A stretch of DNA of 64,000 bases, taken from contig CAJQLB010000010.1 of NCBI GenBank assembly GCA_905479065.1, forward strand, positions 1 to 64,000, given 5' to 3'. The translations under genes were made by a program, and so were the position numbers. Below are positions 6,267 to 37,613 of this stretch, piece by piece; the first letter of the stretch is position 1, and every line of letters starts with the position of its first letter. The notes beneath the pieces are model-generated. The model was not told the origin of the DNA, made no database searches, and saw only the letters and a program-made list of their open reading frames with translations. The stretch comes from an uncultured Flavobacteriaceae bacterium. GTDB lineage: Bacteria; Bacteroidota; Bacteroidia; Flavobacteriales; Flavobacteriaceae.

Positions 6267-8045
6267 ATGAAATACATTCTTTATCTATTTATCACATTAT
6301 TTGGATTCCAGTCTTTTTCGCAAAATGAAGAGTTGGCAAAGGAGTATTTTGATAGAGGAGAGTTTCAGAAAGCCTTATTGTCTTATGAAAAATTATACAA
6401 GGAAAAGAAGGGTAATTCTAACTACTTTAATAAGATTGTGGAGATTCATCAACAATTAGAAAATTATGATATTTCAGAGAAACTTCTTGTCGGTAAATCT
6501 AAGAAAAATTCGAATCCACAATACTTGGTTGATTTAGGGTATAATTTTTATTTAAAAGGGTTTCAAAATGAGGCAGAAAAGCATTACGAACGAGCGGTTT
6601 TAAAAATTGAAGATCGACCAGTTTATGGTTATTATGTTGCCAGACGTTTTGAAGCTTATGCACTAATCAATTTTGCAGCTCGTGCTTATGAAAGAACAAT
6701 GGAGCTACGCCCTGATGCCAATTATCATGCACAACTTGCTAGAATTTACGGAGAACAAGGTCTCCTTGAAAAAATGTTTGTGCATTACCTCGACTTTCTA
6801 GAGATAAAAAGTTCTTATGTGAGTCAGGTTAAACGGTCATTTAGTGATTACATCACTGAAAACGCTGATGGCAATAACAACATCATGTTGCGCAAAATTC
6901 TAATAAAGAAGATGCAATCACAACCAAATGTTTTATGGAATCAATTGTTGAGTTGGTTGTACATACAACAGCGAGATTATTCTAAAGCATTTGCACAAGA
7001 AAAAGCAATTTACTTAAGAGAACAGGGGTCATTAAGCGGTATTTTAGAATTGGGTAATGTAACTTTAAAAGAAAATTATCCAGATATCTCTCAGGTTATT
7101 TTAACCTACTTGATCGACAACGCTGATGATATTGAAACGATTATAGAAGCTCACAAAAAACGTTTAGAACTTCAAATACAATTTGCAGAACCAAAAGTAT
7201 ATGAGGAAATTAACCAGAAATATCATGACATTATAATTACCTACGAGTACTCACAAGAAGTAATTGATATCATGATTTCTCATGCTCATTTTAAAGCATT
7301 TTATTTAAACAAATCATTAGAAGCGATAACGTATCTCAAAAAGATGCTCAAAATGAATTTTAATGATTTTCAAAATGCCAGAATAAAGCTAGAATTAGGT
7401 GATATTTTAGTTTTTCAACAGAAGTTCAATGAAGCACTAATTTATTATTCTCAGATTCAAGCTAATTTAAAAAACAGTGTGTTGTCTCAGGAGGCTAGAT
7501 TTCGAGTAGCCAAGACGAGTTACTACAAGGGAGATTTTAAATGGGCAGAATCGCAATTAAAAGTACTGAAGGCCTCCACTTCACAGCTCATAGCAAATGA
7601 TGCATTAGATTTAAAATTACTAATATCGGACAACAAGTACGAAGATTCTACACAAACTGCTTTAAAATTATATGCAAAAGCAGACTTGTATGCATATCAA
7701 AATAAAACTATTGAGGCGATTGTATTGCTTGATGATATTTTAGAAAATCATAAAACTGAAACTATTGTTGATCAAGCTCTTTACAAACAAGCACAATTGT
7801 ACGAGAAACAAAAAGAGTATTTAAAAGCAGAGAAGAATTATAAAGCCATAATAGCCAATTATAAAGAGGATATTTTGGCTGATGACGCTTATTTTGCCCT
7901 TGCTGAGTTATACAACAATGTGTTGAGTAGGCCCATCGAGGCTCAAGGGTACTATGAGCAAATAATTTTTAATCATGCTGATAGTATTCATTTTATAGAG
8001 GCTAGGAGGAAATTTAGGGAATTACGTGGTGATGATTTAAACTAA
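6267..8045 (+). CDS. Exported tetratricopeptide-repeat protein
   Basis: A 592-aa protein with a clear signal peptide (MKYILYLFITLFGFQSFSQ, cut around residue 19). The rest is helical TPR-like repeats, for example EEYF-type units around residues 22-55 (YFDRGEFQKALLSYEKLY), 340-420 and 470-570 (KQAQLYEKQKEYLKAEKNYKAII). No enzymatic domain is visible. TPR proteins of this kind are scaffolds in the periplasm or at the outer membrane; the partner is unknown. It precedes DUF4286-rsmA-mgtE in the same direction with a 77-bp gap. Confidence 0.85.
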   Translation: MKYILYLFITLFGFQSFSQNEELAKEYFDRGEFQKALLSYEKLYKEKKGNSNYFNKIVEIHQQLENYDISEKLLVGKSKKNSNPQYLVDLGYNFYLKGFQNEAEKHYERAVLKIEDRPVYGYYVARRFEAYALINFAARAYERTMELRPDANYHAQLARIYGEQGLLEKMFVHYLDFLEIKSSYVSQVKRSFSDYITENADGNNNIMLRKILIKKMQSQPNVLWNQLLSWLYIQQRDYSKAFAQEKAIYLREQGSLSGILELGNVTLKENYPDISQVILTYLIDNADDIETIIEAHKKRLELQIQFAEPKVYEEINQKYHDIIITYEYSQEVIDIMISHAHFKAFYLNKSLEAITYLKKMLKMNFNDFQNARIKLELGDILVFQQKFNEALIYYSQIQANLKNSVLSQEARFRVAKTSYYKGDFKWAESQLKVLKASTSQLIANDALDLKLLISDNKYEDSTQTALKLYAKADLYAYQNKTIEAIVLLDDILENHKTETIVDQALYKQAQLYEKQKEYLKAEKNYKAIIANYKEDILADDAYFALAELYNNVLSRPIEAQGYYEQIIFNHADSIHFIEARRKFRELRGDDLN

Positions 8046-30110: not shown

Positions 30111-32168
30111 TTACCAAATTCTTACCCGTTTATCAGGAGATAAGTACATGGCATCACCCTCTGAAATATTAAAAGCTTCGTAAAAAGCATCAATATTTTT
30201 TAAAGGCTGAGTAGCTCTATAAATACCAGGAGAATGAGGATCTGTTTTGATTTGAGTTCTTAAGGCATCTGGTCTGGTTAAAGTTCTCCATACAGTAGCC
30301 CAAGACATGAAAAAACGTTGTTCGGCTGTGAAGCCATCAATATCCTCGGGACGTCCTTCTTCATCAAAGAAAAGTTGCAAACCATCATAAGCTCCAAGTA
30401 AACCTCCAAGGTCACCAATATTTTCTCCCAACGTGAATTTACCATTGATGTAAACACTGTCCATAACTTCAATAGCACTGTACTGCTCGGCTAAAGCATT
30501 TCCGCGGTTTTCAAATTCAATTAAATCTTCTGGAGTCCACCAATTATTCACATTACCATTGGCATCGAAGCGTGCTCCAGAGTCATCAAAAGCATGTGAA
30601 ATCTCATGACCAATTACAGCACCAATTCCACCGTAATTAACGGCCTCATCTGCAGTGTAATTGTAAAATGGAGGTTGTAATATAGCAGCTGGAAATACAA
30701 TTTCGTTATTAAGTGGGTTAAAATACGCATTTACAGTTTGAGGAGGCATTCCCCATTCTTTTTTATCTACTGGCTCACCAATTTCCGAAATATTTTTCTT
30801 TAAACTCCAGTCACTCACAGCCATCATATTTTCAGCGTATGTGTTTCCCTCTTTGACCATCAAAGAGGAATAATCTTCCCATTCATCTGGATATGCAATT
30901 TTAACGGTGAATTTATCTAATTTTTCAATGGCTTTTTTCTTGGTTTCATCACCCATCCAATCAAGATTATTTATTCTGTTTTGAAATGCAGCAATGACGT
31001 TAGCAATCATTTTTTCAGCTTTTGCTTTTGCTTCTGGCGGAAATTTAGCCTCAACATATAATTTACCAATAGCCTCGCCAACCGTCCCACTCACTGTGCC
31101 CATGGCGCGCTCATCAGCCGCACGCATTTTTTTGGACCCATTTAAAGTTTTTCCATAAAATTCCCAATTTGCTCGTTCAATGTCTGAGCTCAACCAACCT
31201 GAAGCGCCTCTCAAAGTACTCCACTTCATTAAAGTTTTAATATCTTCAATATTTGTAGAGGATAAAATACCCTCGAGTGCTATCATGTACTTTGGCTGCA
31301 ATACCATTATGGTGTCTAACTCTTTGGTAACACCATAATCTGAAATGAATTTGTTCCAATTAATCGAAGGGGTCATTTCAGCTAATTGATTAAGAGATCT
31401 TGGATTATTAAAATTTCTAACATCCCGACTTGCAACTTTATCAAGTCTTGGACTCGCCAACTTCGTTTCTAGTTTTAAAATCATTTCTGCAGCTTTTGCT
31501 GCATCCGCTTCATTATAGTCAATAAATTGAAGCATTGTCGTGATATGATCAGTGTACTGTTCTCTTCTTTCTTTAGATTTATCATCGCTGAGGAGATAGT
31601 AATCTCGATCTGGTAAGCCTAAACCCCCTGCGGTAATGTAAGCAGTATTCATACTGCTGTCATTCAAATCACCAAATGATGTAAGGCTGGCAAAAGGTGC
31701 TGCAATACCGATAGTGGTTGCGTAAACTGTTTGCATGTCAAAGAGATTAGTAATGCCGTTGATTCTCTTAAGCAGTGGTTTTAAGGGCTCAATCCCTGCC
31801 TTATTTCGTGCAAGAGTGTCGAGTTCAGACTCAAATATCAGTAAGGCTTTTCTTTGATCAGTACCAGCTTCGTATTTTCCTAATTCTTTTGACGTATTTA
31901 ATATTTCAAGGACATCTGCTCTTGTAGATTTACGAAGAACCCCAAAGCCTCCCCATCTTGATTCATCATCCGGAATGGTGTTTGATTTCACCCAATTCCC
32001 ATTGACATAACTGTAAAAATCATCTTTTGGATCTATGGAAACATCCATATTATCCAAAATGATGCCAGGGGACTTATTTGCATCTACTATTGTTTTTTCT
32101 TTACATGCTAAGAACCCTAGGAGACAAAAGGCACTAACAAATAATCGTGTACTTCGGTTAGTTTTCAT
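30111..32168 (-). CDS. M13 family zinc metallopeptidase, lipoprotein
   Basis: A 685-aa neprilysin/PepO-type endopeptidase that cuts oligopeptides. The N-terminus is a lipoprotein signal (LLGFLAC, Cys22), so it is membrane-anchored in the envelope. The M13 N-terminal domain starts at DFYSYVNGNWVKS. The zinc site is VIGHEISHAFDDSG with the third ligand in GENIGDLGG; NAYFNPLNNEIVFPA is the substrate-binding NAYY-type motif. The C-terminus RVRIW is family-typical. It belongs with the M24B and M1 peptidases nearby in a peptide-using region. No -7 box was found just upstream. Confidence 0.95.
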   Translation of the reverse strand: MKTNRSTRLFVSAFCLLGFLACKEKTIVDANKSPGIILDNMDVSIDPKDDFYSYVNGNWVKSNTIPDDESRWGGFGVLRKSTRADVLEILNTSKELGKYEAGTDQRKALLIFESELDTLARNKAGIEPLKPLLKRINGITNLFDMQTVYATTIGIAAPFASLTSFGDLNDSSMNTAYITAGGLGLPDRDYYLLSDDKSKERREQYTDHITTMLQFIDYNEADAAKAAEMILKLETKLASPRLDKVASRDVRNFNNPRSLNQLAEMTPSINWNKFISDYGVTKELDTIMVLQPKYMIALEGILSSTNIEDIKTLMKWSTLRGASGWLSSDIERANWEFYGKTLNGSKKMRAADERAMGTVSGTVGEAIGKLYVEAKFPPEAKAKAEKMIANVIAAFQNRINNLDWMGDETKKKAIEKLDKFTVKIAYPDEWEDYSSLMVKEGNTYAENMMAVSDWSLKKNISEIGEPVDKKEWGMPPQTVNAYFNPLNNEIVFPAAILQPPFYNYTADEAVNYGGIGAVIGHEISHAFDDSGARFDANGNVNNWWTPEDLIEFENRGNALAEQYSAIEVMDSVYINGKFTLGENIGDLGGLLGAYDGLQLFFDEEGRPEDIDGFTAEQRFFMSWATVWRTLTRPDALRTQIKTDPHSPGIYRATQPLKNIDAFYEAFNISEGDAMYLSPDKRVRIW

Positions 32169-32253
32169 TTTTTCTGATTTTACGGTAAAAATAATTTAAC
32201 GATTAAAAAATTGGTTATGTTATTAGTATTAGGGACGTGTAAATTTAATCTTA

Positions 32254-32796
32254 TTAATTAGGTTTTTTTATCTTTTGAGATTCTTTTTCAAACTTTTTAT
32301 TTAATTGCAAGATTAGATTCGAATGAGACACTAGAATGTCTTTAATACTCTGCAATAAATTATCTTTTTCGGTAGACTTTAATGAAATCATCCCTTCTAA
32401 TTTTAAAAATAAGGTTTCAATGACAGTTAAACGAACCAAGATTGAGGTAGATTTAATTGATTCAGGAATTTCATTTTTTAAATCAGTAAAAAATGAATCT
32501 AAAATCACTTTGTCATTGTTTAAAAATGATAAATTTCCTAGATGAACTTCTTCAATTATACCCATTAATTCATTAAACTTTTGCCAATCCCTTACCTTAG
32601 TTTTTGAAATGTCACTCAATACGTATTCAGTAAATTTTAAATTAGAAATGTTTTGGATTGTTACTTGTGAAGAATCAATAGAACTTATTTCAGGAATAGG
32701 ATTTAATTCAAGTTTCTCAGTGTTAAGGCATCCAAAAAGAAGTGATAGTAAGCAATAAACTACAGAATTTCTAATGACAATAAAAGATGAAATCAT
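32254..32796 (-). CDS. Putative lipoprotein, unknown function
   Basis: A 180-aa protein starting with a hydrophobic stretch ending LLSLLFGC, a lipobox, at about residue 22. The rest is mostly predicted helix, rich in Leu, Lys and Glu (KFNELMGIIEEVHLGNLSFL; QLNKKFEKESQKI at the end), suggesting a helical bundle or coiled coil. I do not recognise the family. It has an exact -7 box upstream and lies 85 bp from the M13 gene on the same strand. Confidence 0.7.
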   Translation of the reverse strand: MISSFIVIRNSVVYCLLSLLFGCLNTEKLELNPIPEISSIDSSQVTIQNISNLKFTEYVLSDISKTKVRDWQKFNELMGIIEEVHLGNLSFLNNDKVILDSFFTDLKNEIPESIKSTSILVRLTVIETLFLKLEGMISLKSTEKDNLLQSIKDILVSHSNLILQLNKKFEKESQKIKKPN

Positions 32797-32816
32797 GACA
32801 GATAGGATTATAAATA

Positions 32817-32824
32817 CAAATATA
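32817..32824 (-). promoter_or_regulatory. -7 box of the unknown lipoprotein gene
   Basis: The minus strand reads TATATTTG, an exact consensus match 20 bp before the ATG at 32796. Confidence 0.5.
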
Positions 32825-32923
32825 TTGTATCTACCATCTTTTCAAACTTATTCCACATTAATTTTCTGTGCATCATAAATATTTTTTTGATAAATAATTG
32901 CGAGTAGAACTATATTTTCTTTC

Positions 32924-32931
32924 TATTTTTG
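32924..32931 (+). promoter_or_regulatory. Promoter of threonine dehydrogenase gene
   Basis: TATTTTTG matches TAnnTTTG, with TTG at 32898-32900 and 23 bp between, within the range seen for flavobacterial promoters. It ends 23 bp before ATG 32955. Confidence 0.55.
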
Positions 32932-32954
32932 ACATTATAATTACGAAGATAGAC

Positions 32955-33917
32955 ATGAAATCAAAAACGCTTATTATTGGTGCTTGCGGACAAATAGGTT
33001 CTGAGTTAACCCATAAATTAAGGGCTAAACTAGGTGTCAACAACGTTATAGCAAGTGATATTAAAGCAAGAAATTTGGATTTAGTTACGTCTGGGCCATT
33101 TGAAATAATTGATGCAAAAAACAAGAAACAATTAAAAAATTGTATCGAAAAGCATGACATTGATACGGTATATCTAATGGCAGCTTTGTTAAGTGCAACT
33201 GGAGAAAAATTTCCACAAAAAGCCTGGAATTTAAACACGACCTCATTATTAAATATTCTTAATTTAGCGAAAGAGAAATACATTAAAAAAGTGTTTTGGC
33301 CTTCAAGTATTGCAGTTTTTGGACCATCTACCCCTAAAAAAAACACCCCACAGCAAACCGTTATGGAGCCAACCACCGTTTATGGAATTACAAAACAAGT
33401 TGGAGAACGTTGGTGCGCATATTATCATAAAAATTATGGTGTTGATGTGAGAAGTATTCGCTACCCAGGAATTATTAGCTGGAAAACATTACCCGGTGGA
33501 GGTACGACAGATTATGCCATTGACATCTTTCATAAGGCGCTCAAAGATGGTCATTATGAATGTTTTTTAACAGAAGATACTGCTTTACCAATGATGTACA
33601 TGGAGGATGCGGTAAAGGCAACATTAGATATTATGAAAGCTAAAAATAGCGATATCAAAATTAGATCATCCTACAATCTATCTGCTATCAGTTTTACGCC
33701 AAAACAATTAGCTTCAGAAATTATAAAAAATATACCCTCATTTACAATTGCTTATAAACCAGACTTTAGGCAACAAATAGCAAATTCATGGCCAAATTCC
33801 ATTGACGATACTGCAGCGAGACAGGATTGGAATTGGAAGCATTCCTATGACATTAGTATGATTTCACAAAATATGCTTCAACAATTGGAAAAAAGCGAAC
33901 GTCTTAATGTTCTGTAA
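32955..33917 (+). CDS. L-threonine 3-dehydrogenase, SDR (GalE-like) type
   Basis: From ATG 32955 it is 320 aa (MKSKTLIIGACGQIGSEL). The NAD motif is GACGQIG, the catalytic Tyr/Lys pair is YGITKQVGERWC, and Ser of the triad is in WPSSIAVFG. The segments RYPGIISWKTLPGGGTTDYA and the overall length fit the GalE-like threonine dehydrogenase first described from psychrophilic Flavobacterium and Cytophaga relatives, distinct from the zinc MDR enzyme. It oxidises threonine to 2-amino-3-ketobutyrate. The longer frame from 32898 adds 19 residues across the promoter and is rejected. The 3' end overlaps the convergent M24B gene by 14 bp. Confidence 0.88.
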   Translation: MKSKTLIIGACGQIGSELTHKLRAKLGVNNVIASDIKARNLDLVTSGPFEIIDAKNKKQLKNCIEKHDIDTVYLMAALLSATGEKFPQKAWNLNTTSLLNILNLAKEKYIKKVFWPSSIAVFGPSTPKKNTPQQTVMEPTTVYGITKQVGERWCAYYHKNYGVDVRSIRYPGIISWKTLPGGGTTDYAIDIFHKALKDGHYECFLTEDTALPMMYMEDAVKATLDIMKAKNSDIKIRSSYNLSAISFTPKQLASEIIKNIPSFTIAYKPDFRQQIANSWPNSIDDTAARQDWNWKHSYDISMISQNMLQQLEKSERLNVL

Positions 33918-35358
33918 CATGGATATTCTCAGCGGGTCTAAATTCAGTGAGTCCTTTTTCCTGAATTAACGCCTCTACATTTTTTAAATTTGATGGTACA
34001 AATTGGCTTAAGTTTTCAACACCGTTTTCAGTGACCACGGCTACATCTTCAATTCTAATATAAAGTTGCTCCTCAGGAATCCAAATCATTGGATCAATGG
34101 TGAAAACCATTCCTGGCTTTAGAGGTATTCCATGAACACGTCCAACATCATGTACAGCCATTCCAACAGGGTGTTGAAAATGTCCTCTAAATTTAACACC
34201 ATTTTGAACTGCTTTTAAATGTTCTGCTTTTTCAAATGGATTATTTTTTAAATAGACCTCCATTTCTCGAGCGGCATTGTCTAACACATTGTTAGAGGTC
34301 ACACCGGGTTTTATATATTTAAACAGAGCATCTCTGTAAGCAACAATGAAGTTGTATAAAGCAGCTTGATTTTTGTTAAAAGTCCCATTTACAGGCCAAA
34401 TTCTTGTCACATCACTTGTGTAGTTATGATAATCTGGGGCGTAATCCATAAGAACTAAATCATTGTTTTTTAAGAGATCAGTTTTTCTGAAGTAATGTCC
34501 CATGTAAGCGTTTGTTCCGCCACCTATAATGGATGGATATCCGTCACCTTGGGCACCATGTTGGTAAAATATGTATTTTGCCGCAGCATCTAACTGATAC
34601 TCATAAATTCCTGGTTTAGTAGATCTCATTGCTTCCATAATCCCGAGTCCAGCAATTCGGGTTGCCTTCCGAATAATTTCAATTTCTTGTTTACTTTTAA
34701 TGAGACGCATCGCATCTAAGTGTGGCGATAAATCTTTTATTTGAAATTCTGGAAAACGTTCTTCCAATAAGGTTTTAAATCTTGATTCTCGAGTACCATT
34801 TGAGTCCCACGGATCTGCAGCTGCTCTGGCATGACCATATAGTATTTCATCTCTACTGTCGTTGCCTATTTCAGCAGGACTTAAAGGGGTGTATAATTGA
34901 GGAGTCAGACCATTAATAAGACCAGTTCTAATCAGGTCGTTACCCAGTAATTCAATAGAACGAACTTGATTTATCCCCGTTAATTCAGTGACCAATTTTG
35001 CATCCTCTACTGATAATATTTTTCCTTGACTTAGTTCTCTTTCTTTGTCCCTGTGTGGTAAATAAAGTATACTAGATCGATTTTTCCCGTTCAATAACAA
35101 ATAGGCATGTGCTTCCTCAATGCCACATAAGTAATAAAACGTATTTGATTGCCGAAAGACTTTGAAGCCTGCAACACTAGGTGCACTTTGAATAAGCGCT
35201 ATCGCGTTTTCACCGATAGCATCGAAAATCATATTTCTGCGATTTTCAAATTCTAATATTGAGAAGTCAGTTTGAAAGTAGTGTTTTTCTTGTCCTGATA
35301 GAATAGGATTATTGAGTAGAGTTATTGTTATTAGAAATAAAATCTTTTTAACTAACAT
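33904..35358 (-). CDS. Exported M24B aminopeptidase (Xaa-Pro aminopeptidase-like)
   Basis: A 484-aa protein with a signal peptide (MLVKKILFLITITLLNN, cut near residue 23) and the N-terminal creatinase-like domain followed by the pita-bread fold. Metal-site regions are LMDYAPDYHNYTSDVTRIWP, FQHPVGMAVHDVG, FTIDPMIWIP and RIEDVAVVTENG. At the fourth ligand the usual Glu (TxEPG) is Asp (TIDPM), which I believe is shared with some Bacteroidota relatives. It would remove N-terminal residues before proline from imported or periplasmic peptides. It overlaps threonine dehydrogenase at the 3' end. Confidence 0.88.
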   Translation of the reverse strand: MLVKKILFLITITLLNNPILSGQEKHYFQTDFSILEFENRRNMIFDAIGENAIALIQSAPSVAGFKVFRQSNTFYYLCGIEEAHAYLLLNGKNRSSILYLPHRDKERELSQGKILSVEDAKLVTELTGINQVRSIELLGNDLIRTGLINGLTPQLYTPLSPAEIGNDSRDEILYGHARAAADPWDSNGTRESRFKTLLEERFPEFQIKDLSPHLDAMRLIKSKQEIEIIRKATRIAGLGIMEAMRSTKPGIYEYQLDAAAKYIFYQHGAQGDGYPSIIGGGTNAYMGHYFRKTDLLKNNDLVLMDYAPDYHNYTSDVTRIWPVNGTFNKNQAALYNFIVAYRDALFKYIKPGVTSNNVLDNAAREMEVYLKNNPFEKAEHLKAVQNGVKFRGHFQHPVGMAVHDVGRVHGIPLKPGMVFTIDPMIWIPEEQLYIRIEDVAVVTENGVENLSQFVPSNLKNVEALIQEKGLTEFRPAENIHVTEH

Positions 35359-35497
35359 AGATAGTGAATTTAGATATTTGACACGATAAATAACCTCGGT
35401 CTTTAAAATTACAATAATTTTTAATGTAACATAAAAGCATTATTTTAGAGTTGTAAAAATAGTCATTGTTACCAAAAAGCATAAATTAATCTTAAAC

Positions 35498-37147
35498 ATG
35501 AATTTTTTAAAAAACACGCTAATTATCATCGGTTTGTTGGTGATGCAATCAACAGTTTCTGCAGTAACTGACGGATACCCAAAAAACCCAAAAATCGATG
35601 TTCTTAATTATATCTTTAATCTTGAGTTATCAGATGTGACTGATGAGATTTTATGCGAAACAATAGTTGATGTTGAATTTTTAGATATTAATGTAACAAC
35701 CATACGCTTAGACCTTGTTAAACGTACAGACGAGTTGAACGGTAAGGGGATGGAGGTTAGTAATGTCTTGAGTAACGGTCAAGAATTAAAATACAGTCAT
35801 ACCAATGATGAATTAGTGATATCACTGCCTGAGCTATCACAACCCCATCAACGCTTGAAAATTGTTATTAAATATCGAGGAGTTCCCGTTACAGGATTAA
35901 AAATTGGAAATAATAAATATGGAGATAGAACATTTTTTAGTGACAATTGGCCCAATCGTGGCCGCCACTGGTTACCTATTATAGACCATCCTTACGATAA
36001 GGCAATGTGTGAATTTATTGTTACCGCACCAAGTCATTATCAAGTGGTTTCCAATGGGCTAAAGGTGGAGGAAACCAATCTTAATGATGATAAAAAGCTT
36101 ACACATTGGAGGCAGTCTGTGCCAATTGCGTCATGGTTATATGTCTTGGGTGTTGCAGATTTTGCAGTACAATACGTTGGTGATTTTGATGGTAAATCGA
36201 TTCAGACATGGGTGTTCAAACAAGACAGAGACGCAGGTTTTTTTGATTTTGCTGAACCTACTAAAAAGGTATTAGAATTTTACAGTAATTATATTGGTCC
36301 ATTTTCTTATGAAAAACTTGCAAACATACAATCAAATAGTGTAAGTGGTGGTATGGAGGCTGCCTCAGCTATATTATACAGTGATAATTCTGTGAAAGGT
36401 GATAGGAATATACGATGGCGAAATGTTGTTATTCATGAAATTGCTCATCAATGGTTTGGAAACTCAGTGACAGAGTATGATTGGGATGATGTATGGCTAA
36501 GTGAGGGCTTTGCTACTTATTTTACTTTACTTTTTATTGAACACCAATATGGTCGTGAAGAATTTGTTCGTGGACTCATGTCCAGTCAAAAAAGAGTTGA
36601 CACGTTTTATGACGAAAATCCTGAATACACGATTGTACACAATAACCTCAAGGATATGGAAGATGTTACGAGTTCTCAGACTTATCAAAAGGGAAGTTGG
36701 ATTTTACACATGTTACGGGGTGTTGTAGGTACAGATGTTTTTTGGAAAGGGATCCAAAAATATTACACTAAATATAAAGATTTATCAGCGTCAACAGATG
36801 ATTTTAAAAGGATAATGGAAGAGGTGTCGCATCAAAATTTAGACACTTTTTTTAGACAATGGCTATATGAGCCAGGTATTCTAACGTTGGAAGGGAGCTG
36901 GAATTATGTCAAGCAAGATGATGAAATTGTTATTAATTTGAATCAAGTTCAAACTGATGGTAGTCTTTTTGAAATGCCAATCGAAGTTAAAATTGACTAT
37001 GCCAATGGTGAGGAGCAAATAAAATTAATTCAAATTACTAGTTCTGAAACCAATGTGAGACTTAAAGTTGAAAGTGAACCGGTGCAAATTCACCTAGACC
37101 CTCATTATTGGGTTTTAATGAATGCAAGTTTTAAGAAACTAGAATGA
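35498..37147 (+). CDS. Exported M1 family aminopeptidase
   Basis: A 549-aa zinc aminopeptidase with a signal peptide (MNFLKNTLIIIGLLVMQSTVSA). The M1 beta-sandwich domain leads to the exopeptidase motif SGGMEAAS (GAMEN variant) and the zinc site HEIAHQWFGNSVTEYDWDDVWLSEG (HExxH then E, quoted around residues 312-336). The catalytic Tyr lies in SSQTYQKGSWILHML. The protein ends soon after the catalytic domain, so it is a short M1 form like leukotriene A4 hydrolase-type enzymes without the long C-terminal helical domain. Its TGA overlaps the start of the YxSQ gene (ATGA). Confidence 0.93.
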   Translation: MNFLKNTLIIIGLLVMQSTVSAVTDGYPKNPKIDVLNYIFNLELSDVTDEILCETIVDVEFLDINVTTIRLDLVKRTDELNGKGMEVSNVLSNGQELKYSHTNDELVISLPELSQPHQRLKIVIKYRGVPVTGLKIGNNKYGDRTFFSDNWPNRGRHWLPIIDHPYDKAMCEFIVTAPSHYQVVSNGLKVEETNLNDDKKLTHWRQSVPIASWLYVLGVADFAVQYVGDFDGKSIQTWVFKQDRDAGFFDFAEPTKKVLEFYSNYIGPFSYEKLANIQSNSVSGGMEAASAILYSDNSVKGDRNIRWRNVVIHEIAHQWFGNSVTEYDWDDVWLSEGFATYFTLLFIEHQYGREEFVRGLMSSQKRVDTFYDENPEYTIVHNNLKDMEDVTSSQTYQKGSWILHMLRGVVGTDVFWKGIQKYYTKYKDLSASTDDFKRIMEEVSHQNLDTFFRQWLYEPGILTLEGSWNYVKQDDEIVINLNQVQTDGSLFEMPIEVKIDYANGEEQIKLIQITSSETNVRLKVESEPVQIHLDPHYWVLMNASFKKLE

Positions 37148-37500
37148 AGCCCTCAGAAATGAATGTTAAAATAAAAATCATTGCAATTTTTATTTTTTTA
37201 TTGAGTTATCAAATACATGCACAAAAAATGCATGCTGTTGCTTATGAATCGCAGTCTGAAATAAAAATTTATGTGGTTGCGTATGAGTCACAGTGTGATC
37301 TTAAGGTCTATAAGGTTGATTACCAATCACAAGCTAAAGGAAATGAGGGGTTATGGTATTTTACAGAATATTCTAGCCAAGCAGATAAAAAAATCTTTGT
37401 TGTTGATTACGAGTCACAAGCAGATTTGAAAATTTATTTTGTCGAGTACAAGTCACAGGCTGGTTGGAGAAATAAACAATACATTCACCTGTTGTACTAA
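37144..37500 (+). CDS. Exported YxSQ-repeat protein (DUF6150-like)
   Basis: A 118-aa protein with a signal peptide (from Met1 or, more typical, Met6 at 37159, ending HAQ at about residue 27). The mature ~90 residues are six tandem units of about 13-17 residues built on K-[IV]-[YF]-x-V-x-Y-x-S-Q-[AS]-[DE]-L: YESQ, YESQ, YQSQ, YSSQ, YESQ, YKSQ. This pattern matches what I remember as DUF6150-type repeat proteins of unknown function. The strand-turn spacing suggests a small all-beta propeller or knot. It is coupled to the M1 aminopeptidase by a 4-bp overlap and followed by a terminator. Confidence 0.8.
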   Translation: MKPSEMNVKIKIIAIFIFLLSYQIHAQKMHAVAYESQSEIKIYVVAYESQCDLKVYKVDYQSQAKGNEGLWYFTEYSSQADKKIFVVDYESQADLKIYFVEYKSQAGWRNKQYIHLLY

Positions 37501-37501
37501 C

Positions 37502-37540
37502 AAAAAAACCCTTAACATTACAAGTATGTCAAGGGTTTTG
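37502..37540. terminator. Bidirectional terminator between YxSQ gene and tRNA-Phe
   Basis: AAAACCCTT pairs with AAGGGTTTT, and an inner ACAT/ATGT pair extends the stem around a TACAAGT loop. Runs of A and T flank both sides, so it can end both the plus-strand peptidase operon and the minus-strand tRNA-Phe transcript. Confidence 0.85.

Positions 37541-37613
<73 letters not shown>

Follow-up and report, generated by a model that had tools for sequence, protein, structure and literature searches.

An exported DUF6150 repeat protein encoded next to an M1 aminopeptidase gene: predicted Q9PR55-type fold, jointly changing turn residues and carriage on viral contigs

In a 64,000-nucleotide stretch of DNA from an uncultured Flavobacteriaceae bacterium, analysed here as a whole and referred to as the window, a gene for a small repeat protein directly follows an M1 aminopeptidase gene. 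This raises the question of whether the protein belongs to the peptidase or has a fold, a history and a role of its own.

The repeat protein and its gene

The open reading frame encodes 118 amino acids followed by a stop codon (Table 1). A signal peptide, recognised by eye, precedes six units of approximately 13 residues, each of which carries Y-x-S-Q at register positions 7-10. The protein is a full-length member of Pfam family DUF6150 (PF19647; profile positions 3-98 of 98, E-value 1.8e-21, 76.3 bits compared to a cut-off of 27), and a scan of genome contigs gave 72 homologous loci with 43-74% identity in the best segment. Due to this match and the number of homologous loci, a chance open reading frame can be excluded. 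The same profile matches all 69 members of the homologue alignment A1 (E-values up to 1). The mini-protein of six repeat units noted in a preliminary description of this DNA is thereby confirmed, and the export and DUF6150 kinship proposed there are supported. The further statement in that description that the protein contains nothing else proved slightly too strong, since the tail following the units (residues 109-118) is conserved among homologues. Likewise, the described overlap of the start codon at 37144 with the M1 stop codon (ATGA) is present, but the first methionine of most homologues aligns near Met6, and the true start may therefore be situated at 37159, 11 nt past the M1 stop.

Table 1. 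Features of the window around the DUF6150 gene
Feature	Position	Strand	Basis
M1 aminopeptidase gene, local neighbour, no conserved partner	35498..37147	+	Pfam Peptidase_M1
DUF6150 gene, alternative start Met6 at 37159	37144..37500	+	ORF, Pfam, homologue alignment
Signal peptide coding part	37144..37221	+	by eye; Q27 would be first mature residue
Unit 1, residues 28-40	37225..37263	+	register alignment
Unit 2, residues 41-53	37264..37302	+	register alignment
Unit 3 with extra loop, residues 54-69	37303..37350	+	register alignment
Unit 4, residues 70-82	37351..37389	+	register alignment
Unit 5, residues 83-95	37390..37428	+	register alignment
Unit 6, residues 96-108	37429..37467	+	register alignment
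C-terminal tail, residues 109-118, predicted helix 111-117	37468..37497	+	homologue alignment, model
Inverted repeat directly after DUF6150 gene, terminator-like on - strand only	37505..37539	.	pattern scan
tRNA-Phe (gaa)	37540..37613	-	tRNA search

On the DNA level, the copies of the units reported by a repeat search are merely 68-72% alike, which argues against a fresh tandem duplication; Tandem Repeats Finder gave 2.1 copies in the gene. Recent acquisition left no clear signal in the base composition: the GC content of 0.322 is the lowest of five genes compared (0.331-0.364), and the GC3 value of 0.305 lies within, or equals the top of, the range of the compared genes (0.255-0.305). Searches of NCBIfam and PHROGs with the window protein yielded no family. 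For the copy on viral contig L102, the sole PHROGs row, a weak match to a primase (E-value 0.0021), looks like chance. Pfam rows for EF1G in 56 of 69 DUF6150 proteins (best E-value 5.3e-5) and for Lysostaphin_N in nine of them (best E-value 3e-5) were, like the others, taken as chance matches of the repeats.

Gln27 directly follows the signal peptide, the end of which was set by eye, and 88 of the 89 aligned sequences have glutamine at the corresponding position. Glutamine at this position is the Q-rule of exported Bacteroidota proteins described in PMC5837995; according to PMC10653852, it is converted to pyroglutamate in Bacteroidota, presumably as a protection from aminopeptidases. The mature N terminus of the window protein would probably be capped as pyroglutamate.

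Genomic context and distribution

The preliminary description coupled the protein to the M1 aminopeptidase and named an inhibitor of this enzyme as one possibility. On this reading, DUF6150 would represent a dedicated partner or inhibitor made from the same transcript, and the local arrangement is in agreement with this: the gene is located directly downstream on the same strand, its start overlaps the M1 stop or lies 11 nt behind it, and it sits between M1 and the inverted repeat, with no such repeat after M1 itself. This terminator-like element was one of two sites found in a pattern scan, compared to 1.2 in shuffled sequences. Repeated adjacency of homologues to M1 peptidases had been set beforehand as the test of the coupling. 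The 72 homologous loci, which are 3.3-12.4 kb long and amount to 711,017 bases, yielded no M1-like open reading frame by blastp at an E-value of 1e-5. Conversely, DUF6150 is absent from all 19 searched M1 loci of relatives (L108-L126). In the most telling case, the congener G001, an M1 gene with 73% identity and the divergent M24 gene with 82% identity are situated in the same place, again with no DUF6150 gene after M1, and a search of the whole G001 genome did not reveal one either; as this genome is 62% complete and the contig ends 113 bases past M1, only the immediate neighbourhood is certain. An inverted repeat is visible by eye within approximately 10 nt of the M1 stop of G001, where the pattern scan reports none. 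DUF6150 was thus either inserted in the window or lost in G001, and it has no long-standing tie to M1. Thus, a dedicated partner of the M1 aminopeptidase is highly improbable, and the proposed coupling was not borne out.

Immediate neighbours of DUF6150 genes were scanned against Pfam in 107 of 135 cases, the others being left aside chiefly because their loci were near-identical or their open reading frames very long. No family occurred more than three times among them; the commonest, Aminotran_1_2 and Por_Secre_tail, were found three times each. Nine families were met at least twice in these 107 neighbours, and M1 is none of them; the families met once are listed in part. Of the upstream neighbours 40 out of 67, and of the downstream neighbours 28 out of 68, are located on the same strand as DUF6150. 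M24-like open reading frames occur in two of the 72 loci (27-28% identity). A region similar to the window is found on L022, an uncultured Flavobacteriaceae contig, which contains relatives of the window's CoaX gene and of the next two genes, lacks M1, has other genes in between, and carries a tRNA-Phe gene approximately 3 kb from its DUF6150 gene. Integration linked to tRNA genes was considered, because the window gene adjoins tRNA-Phe, but a tRNA gene lies within 1 kb in just one of the 72 loci, and tRNA linkage is thus no rule. Apart from this, three peptidase genes lie close together at 30111-37147 of the window, namely an M13-like gene (30111-32168, by eye), the M24 aminopeptidase P gene and M1.

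The family is patchy. Among 395 genomes from the window's phylum, its own included, 20 gave a match, 19 of these above the cut-off, and among 60 genomes of relatives, again counting the window's own, there were five; a genome search revealed it in none of three congeners. Judged by the titles of the homologous records, the phylum is Bacteroidota, a few of these records bearing the names Patescibacteria, Ignavibacterium or Chlorobi.

DUF6150 genes are furthermore present on 18 viral contigs of IMG/VR, nine of them L130-L138, plus one contig with a match of 14 residues only (L139). The 18 contigs fall into approximately four groups, namely L102/L131 with L106, the pair L100/L101, L099, and L098; the proteins of four contigs (L102-L105) are identical. 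L100 and L101 are contigs of 344-348 kb with a primase and a deoxyribonucleotidase gene near DUF6150. On the 70 kb contig L099, a gene for a phage-type thymidylate synthase is situated two genes further on, and the 24 kb contig L098 contains an HNH endonuclease gene; L098 and L099 are regarded as phages chiefly because IMG/VR labels them so. In the L131 group, two genes have counterparts in immuto, an isolated Flavobacterium phage (37.6% and 63.3% identity), other genes of this group being without a clear family. In the corresponding immuto block, which comprises a phosphohydrolase gene and the genes following it, no DUF6150-like gene is annotated, and DUF6150 is therefore accessory in that phage group. 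A tblastn search of an isolated phage collection with two DUF6150 queries gave no match, and neither did a search of plasmids with one query, the SKYD copy of L018. On L131 (2992-3722, + strand), DUF6150 begins a few bases before its upstream neighbour ends, a gene of approximately 123 codons whose product is a possible partner; this overlap recurs in all eight contigs in which both genes are listed (L102-L104, L106, L131, L135, L136, and L138).

These observations would also fit a phage-borne envelope factor for superinfection exclusion or receptor masking, repeatedly captured by hosts, with turns that bind a repeated surface glycan. A signal peptide is recognisable by eye in the phage copies read, the gene is carried in about four viral groups, and its absence from the corresponding immuto block marks it as accessory there. 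Against this, most copies found sit on contigs without a viral label, and phage families are scattered among the 107 chromosomal neighbours, with two integrase families at one neighbour each. As a bolder form of the explanation preferred below, with which it overlaps, this origin is possible, although the odds are against it.

Predicted fold and known knotted proteins

An AlphaFold2 model based on alignment A1 reached a mean pLDDT of 90.0 and a pTM of 0.75, with residues 31-118 in blocks of 88-98. It comprises a predicted helix at the N terminus (residues 3-23), six strands of at least three residues, short helical turns after strands, and a C-terminal helix. The structure prediction thus favours the compact beta fold expected in the preliminary description over disorder. 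With the phage-only alignment of 11 rows, the pLDDT dropped to 34.7 and the model was unusable, so that a single good model is available, not two.

In a Foldseek search of the PDB, the four best rows all belong to Q9PR55, an 89-residue protein of Ureaplasma (8iwa_A, 8iwa_D, 8iwb_F, and 8jrm). The match to 8iwa_A has an E-value of 2.6e-3, a probability of 1.00, and a TM-score of 0.63 by target length; the NMR entry 8jrm is worse than the crystal entries (probability 0.51). The first unrelated row follows at E-value 2.4 and probability 0.01, and all other rows have E-values of at least 2.4 and probabilities of at most 0.03. VIA-align 2 compared 211 chains, four of which had a Z of at least 2. 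The rows displayed, a single one for each of three entries, again all belong to Q9PR55: 8iwa_A with Z 6.2 (62 residues at 2.3 A, 23% identity, model residues 25-108 on chain residues 23-84), 8iwb with Z 6.1, and 8jrm with Z 4.9. Foldseek E-values above 0.001 and Z values below 8 are middling by the grading of the tool. A search of a viral structure library gave a best E-value of 0.97 at probability 0.02. By sequence, Q9PR55 was not matched in phmmer and profile searches of the PDB, and no bridge to it was found via the copies of L094, L018, and L066.

Q9PR55 is a crystal-confirmed 7_1 knot according to PMC13352647, with a knot core at residues 27-83 of its AlphaFold model as given in PMC9278004. 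Provided that the entry is numbered without gaps, the 62 aligned residues over chain positions 23-84 cover this core completely. The window protein is therefore predicted to share the Q9PR55-type fold and, judged from the model, its backbone is probably knotted. The aligned span of the model contains 84 residues, 22 more than that of Q9PR55, and the crossings may differ accordingly. Polypeptides pass the Sec machinery in an unfolded state, hence the window protein would have to tie its fold outside the cytoplasm.

A less exotic possibility is that the units form an open beta-solenoid or some other unknotted repeat fold, in which case either the AlphaFold2 model itself or the Q9PR55 match would be misleading. 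AlphaFold2 is described to over-predict confident solenoids for perfect repeats (PMC11795689), and to ignore topological barriers and be confidently wrong on knots in some cases (PMC10672856). The Foldseek E-value of just 2.6e-3 and the failure of the phage-only alignment point in the same direction. Opposed to this are the facts that the crystal structure matched over its knot-core span became available only in 2024, and that the remaining Foldseek rows fall far behind. We consider an unknotted fold unlikely and retain a probably knotted, Q9PR55-type fold.

Among known systems, Q9PR55 (PDB 8IWA, 8IWB, and 8JRM) is the only solved fold that matches the model. The window protein differs from it by its signal peptide in addition to the 22 more residues in the aligned span, and identity in the structure alignments is low (19-24%). 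P73136, described in PMC9278004 as a predicted 5_1 homologue of Q9PR55, belongs to the same fold group with one winding different. Designed knotted tandem repeat proteins (PMC10598012) are also composed of equal units meant to close into torus knots, three for 3_1 and five for 5_1. As reported there, these are helical and the pentafoil design misfolded, whereas the window protein is natural and beta. The Knotted Solenoid proteins of PMC13123833 are likewise natural bacterial beta-repeat proteins with a knot, but are characterised there as dimeric shifted-coil solenoids with a 3_1 knot, and they are absent from the fold matches of the window model. From DUF6150 as defined in Pfam, whose match rows assign neither a function nor a fold, no difference of the window protein was found.

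In the literature searched, to which knot databases and the structure paper of Q9PR55 did not belong, there was no paper on DUF6150/PF19647; nor did that literature contain a paper on a 91 knot, while nine-crossing knots are contained, unnamed, in AlphaKnot as presented in PMC11184937. The 7_1-knot papers name Q9PR55 in the parts covered, and one of them also P73136. The link of DUF6150, itself a known Pfam family, to the Q9PR55 fold, its carriage by phages and the joint change of its turns hence appear to be new. As far as this literature and the fold search extend, the seven-crossing protein knot rests on one solved protein, Q9PR55, with no role stated for it there. If the knotted reading is true, many Bacteroidota and several phage groups would be added, with near-perfect repeats and natural variants in unit number, and such a family would allow tests of how a chain exported by Sec ties such a knot and of the purpose that it serves.

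Jointly changing turns and a proposed role

For a comparison of the units, alignment A1 (69 rows: the window protein and 68 of 74 open reading frames, L016, L019, L027, L031, L070, and L072 being excluded) was extended by 20 rows from other loci to 89 rows. Not added were matches weaker than 1e-28 (L077 and L090-L097), the duplicates L101 and L103-L105, and L130-L138. Removal of one gappy row, a short copy of L066, and of rows at least 85% identical over the units left 62 proteins, five of them from viral contigs, whose six units were aligned in register.

All six units share the same residue at register 9 in 52 and at register 10 in 50 of the 62 proteins, yet between proteins these turn residues vary (S, N, Y or H at register 9; Q, D, K or E at register 10). 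Pairwise agreement between units amounts to 0.914 at register 9 and 0.908 at register 10, compared to 0.486 (sd 0.011) and 0.675 (sd 0.007) after column shuffling. The excess is clear but smaller at registers 7 and 8, weak although still above the shuffles at registers 1, 3, 5, 6, and 11, and absent at registers 2, 4, 12, and 13 across these 62 proteins. Since shuffles ignore relatedness, the better control is given by the registers of equal ancestry that lack an excess; the smaller co-change at registers 1, 3, 5, 6, and 11 indicates that shared ancestry explains a part. Mixed states of S and N at register 9 are rare: of 49 proteins with only these two residues, 36 have no N, three have one, one has four, and nine have six. 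Mixed proteins are mainly those of phages and distant rows (L102, L106, L087, and L089). In a tree calculated without registers 7-11, rows with five or six equal units require at least 14 changes at register 9 and three at register 10, the figure of 14 being rough because this tree of 62 rows is weak (61 columns, seven starred of 59 inner branches). As an example, L061, which has N at register 9, groups with three rows of the S type, and this clade is starred (99/96).

Equal turn residues could be a by-product of DNA-level homogenisation by gene conversion or unequal crossing-over, rather than of selection. Indeed, identical codons for the same residue are slightly more frequent in register (0.537) than out of register (0.511), an excess present in 41 of 62 genes (p 0.0025 in a gene-wise Wilcoxon test). 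It is most pronounced for Ser (0.362 versus 0.211) and is also seen for Ile and Gln. This excess is small, however: Y, E, F, K, and N do not show it, and for D, V, and A it is slight. Of the 35 genes in which all six units have Ser at register 9, 13 use TCN as well as AGY codons for it. Moreover, copying of whole units would not result in co-change that is strong at registers 7-10, weak at five registers and missing at four. Homogenisation is accordingly quite unlikely as the source, and we favour turns that change together under a common requirement. The joint turn change provides a clear handle for mutagenesis. A side-by-side case is given by L018 (769-1460, + strand), where two adjacent DUF6150 genes have uniform cores that differ, SKYD throughout in one and Y-x-S-Q throughout in the other.

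Our preferred explanation, to which we assign a probability of roughly 0.6, is that DUF6150 is a mobile, Sec-exported, compact and probably knotted envelope protein with matched turns and without a tie to M1. The precursor would be exported by Sec and cleaved by signal peptidase I in front of Gln27, the new N terminus probably being capped as pyroglutamate. After export, the six units would assemble into a closed and compact Q9PR55-type beta fold, forming a torus knot with multiple crossings. The turns (Y-x-S/N-Q) of the six units would have to match, either because they contact each other in a ring or because they jointly read a repeated ligand, and this need is proposed to make the turn residues change together. 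The gene would be a mobile accessory gene that is carried by several phage lineages and patchily kept by hosts, which makes a role in the cell envelope most likely, e.g., against competing phages; mobility, envelope location and role are what we infer.

Going further, with chances well short of even, DUF6150 might constitute the first widespread, exported and phage-carried family of torus knots, in which the number of units sets the number of windings and thus generates a natural knot series. The ring of matched turns would then confer specificity, and pressure from the phage-host relation or from competitors would make its six copies switch jointly.

Several copies depart from the six-unit form. 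L066 contains, in tandem with a full copy, a short DUF6150 gene for 82 residues (6334-6579, + strand) with about two units fewer, i.e., approximately four; if the knot reading is true, this copy would be a naturally occurring form with a reduced number of windings. The 239-residue protein of L094 (985-1701, - strand) has no N-terminal signal peptide by eye and starts with five DUF6150-like units, accompanied by a Ser-rich linker, a hydrophobic stretch and, at the C terminus, an SH3_3-like match that stays below the cut-off (24.1 compared to 27 bits). In L091, two neighbouring DUF6150 genes (699-1100 and 1375-1794, + strand) have lost much of the regularity of the repeats.
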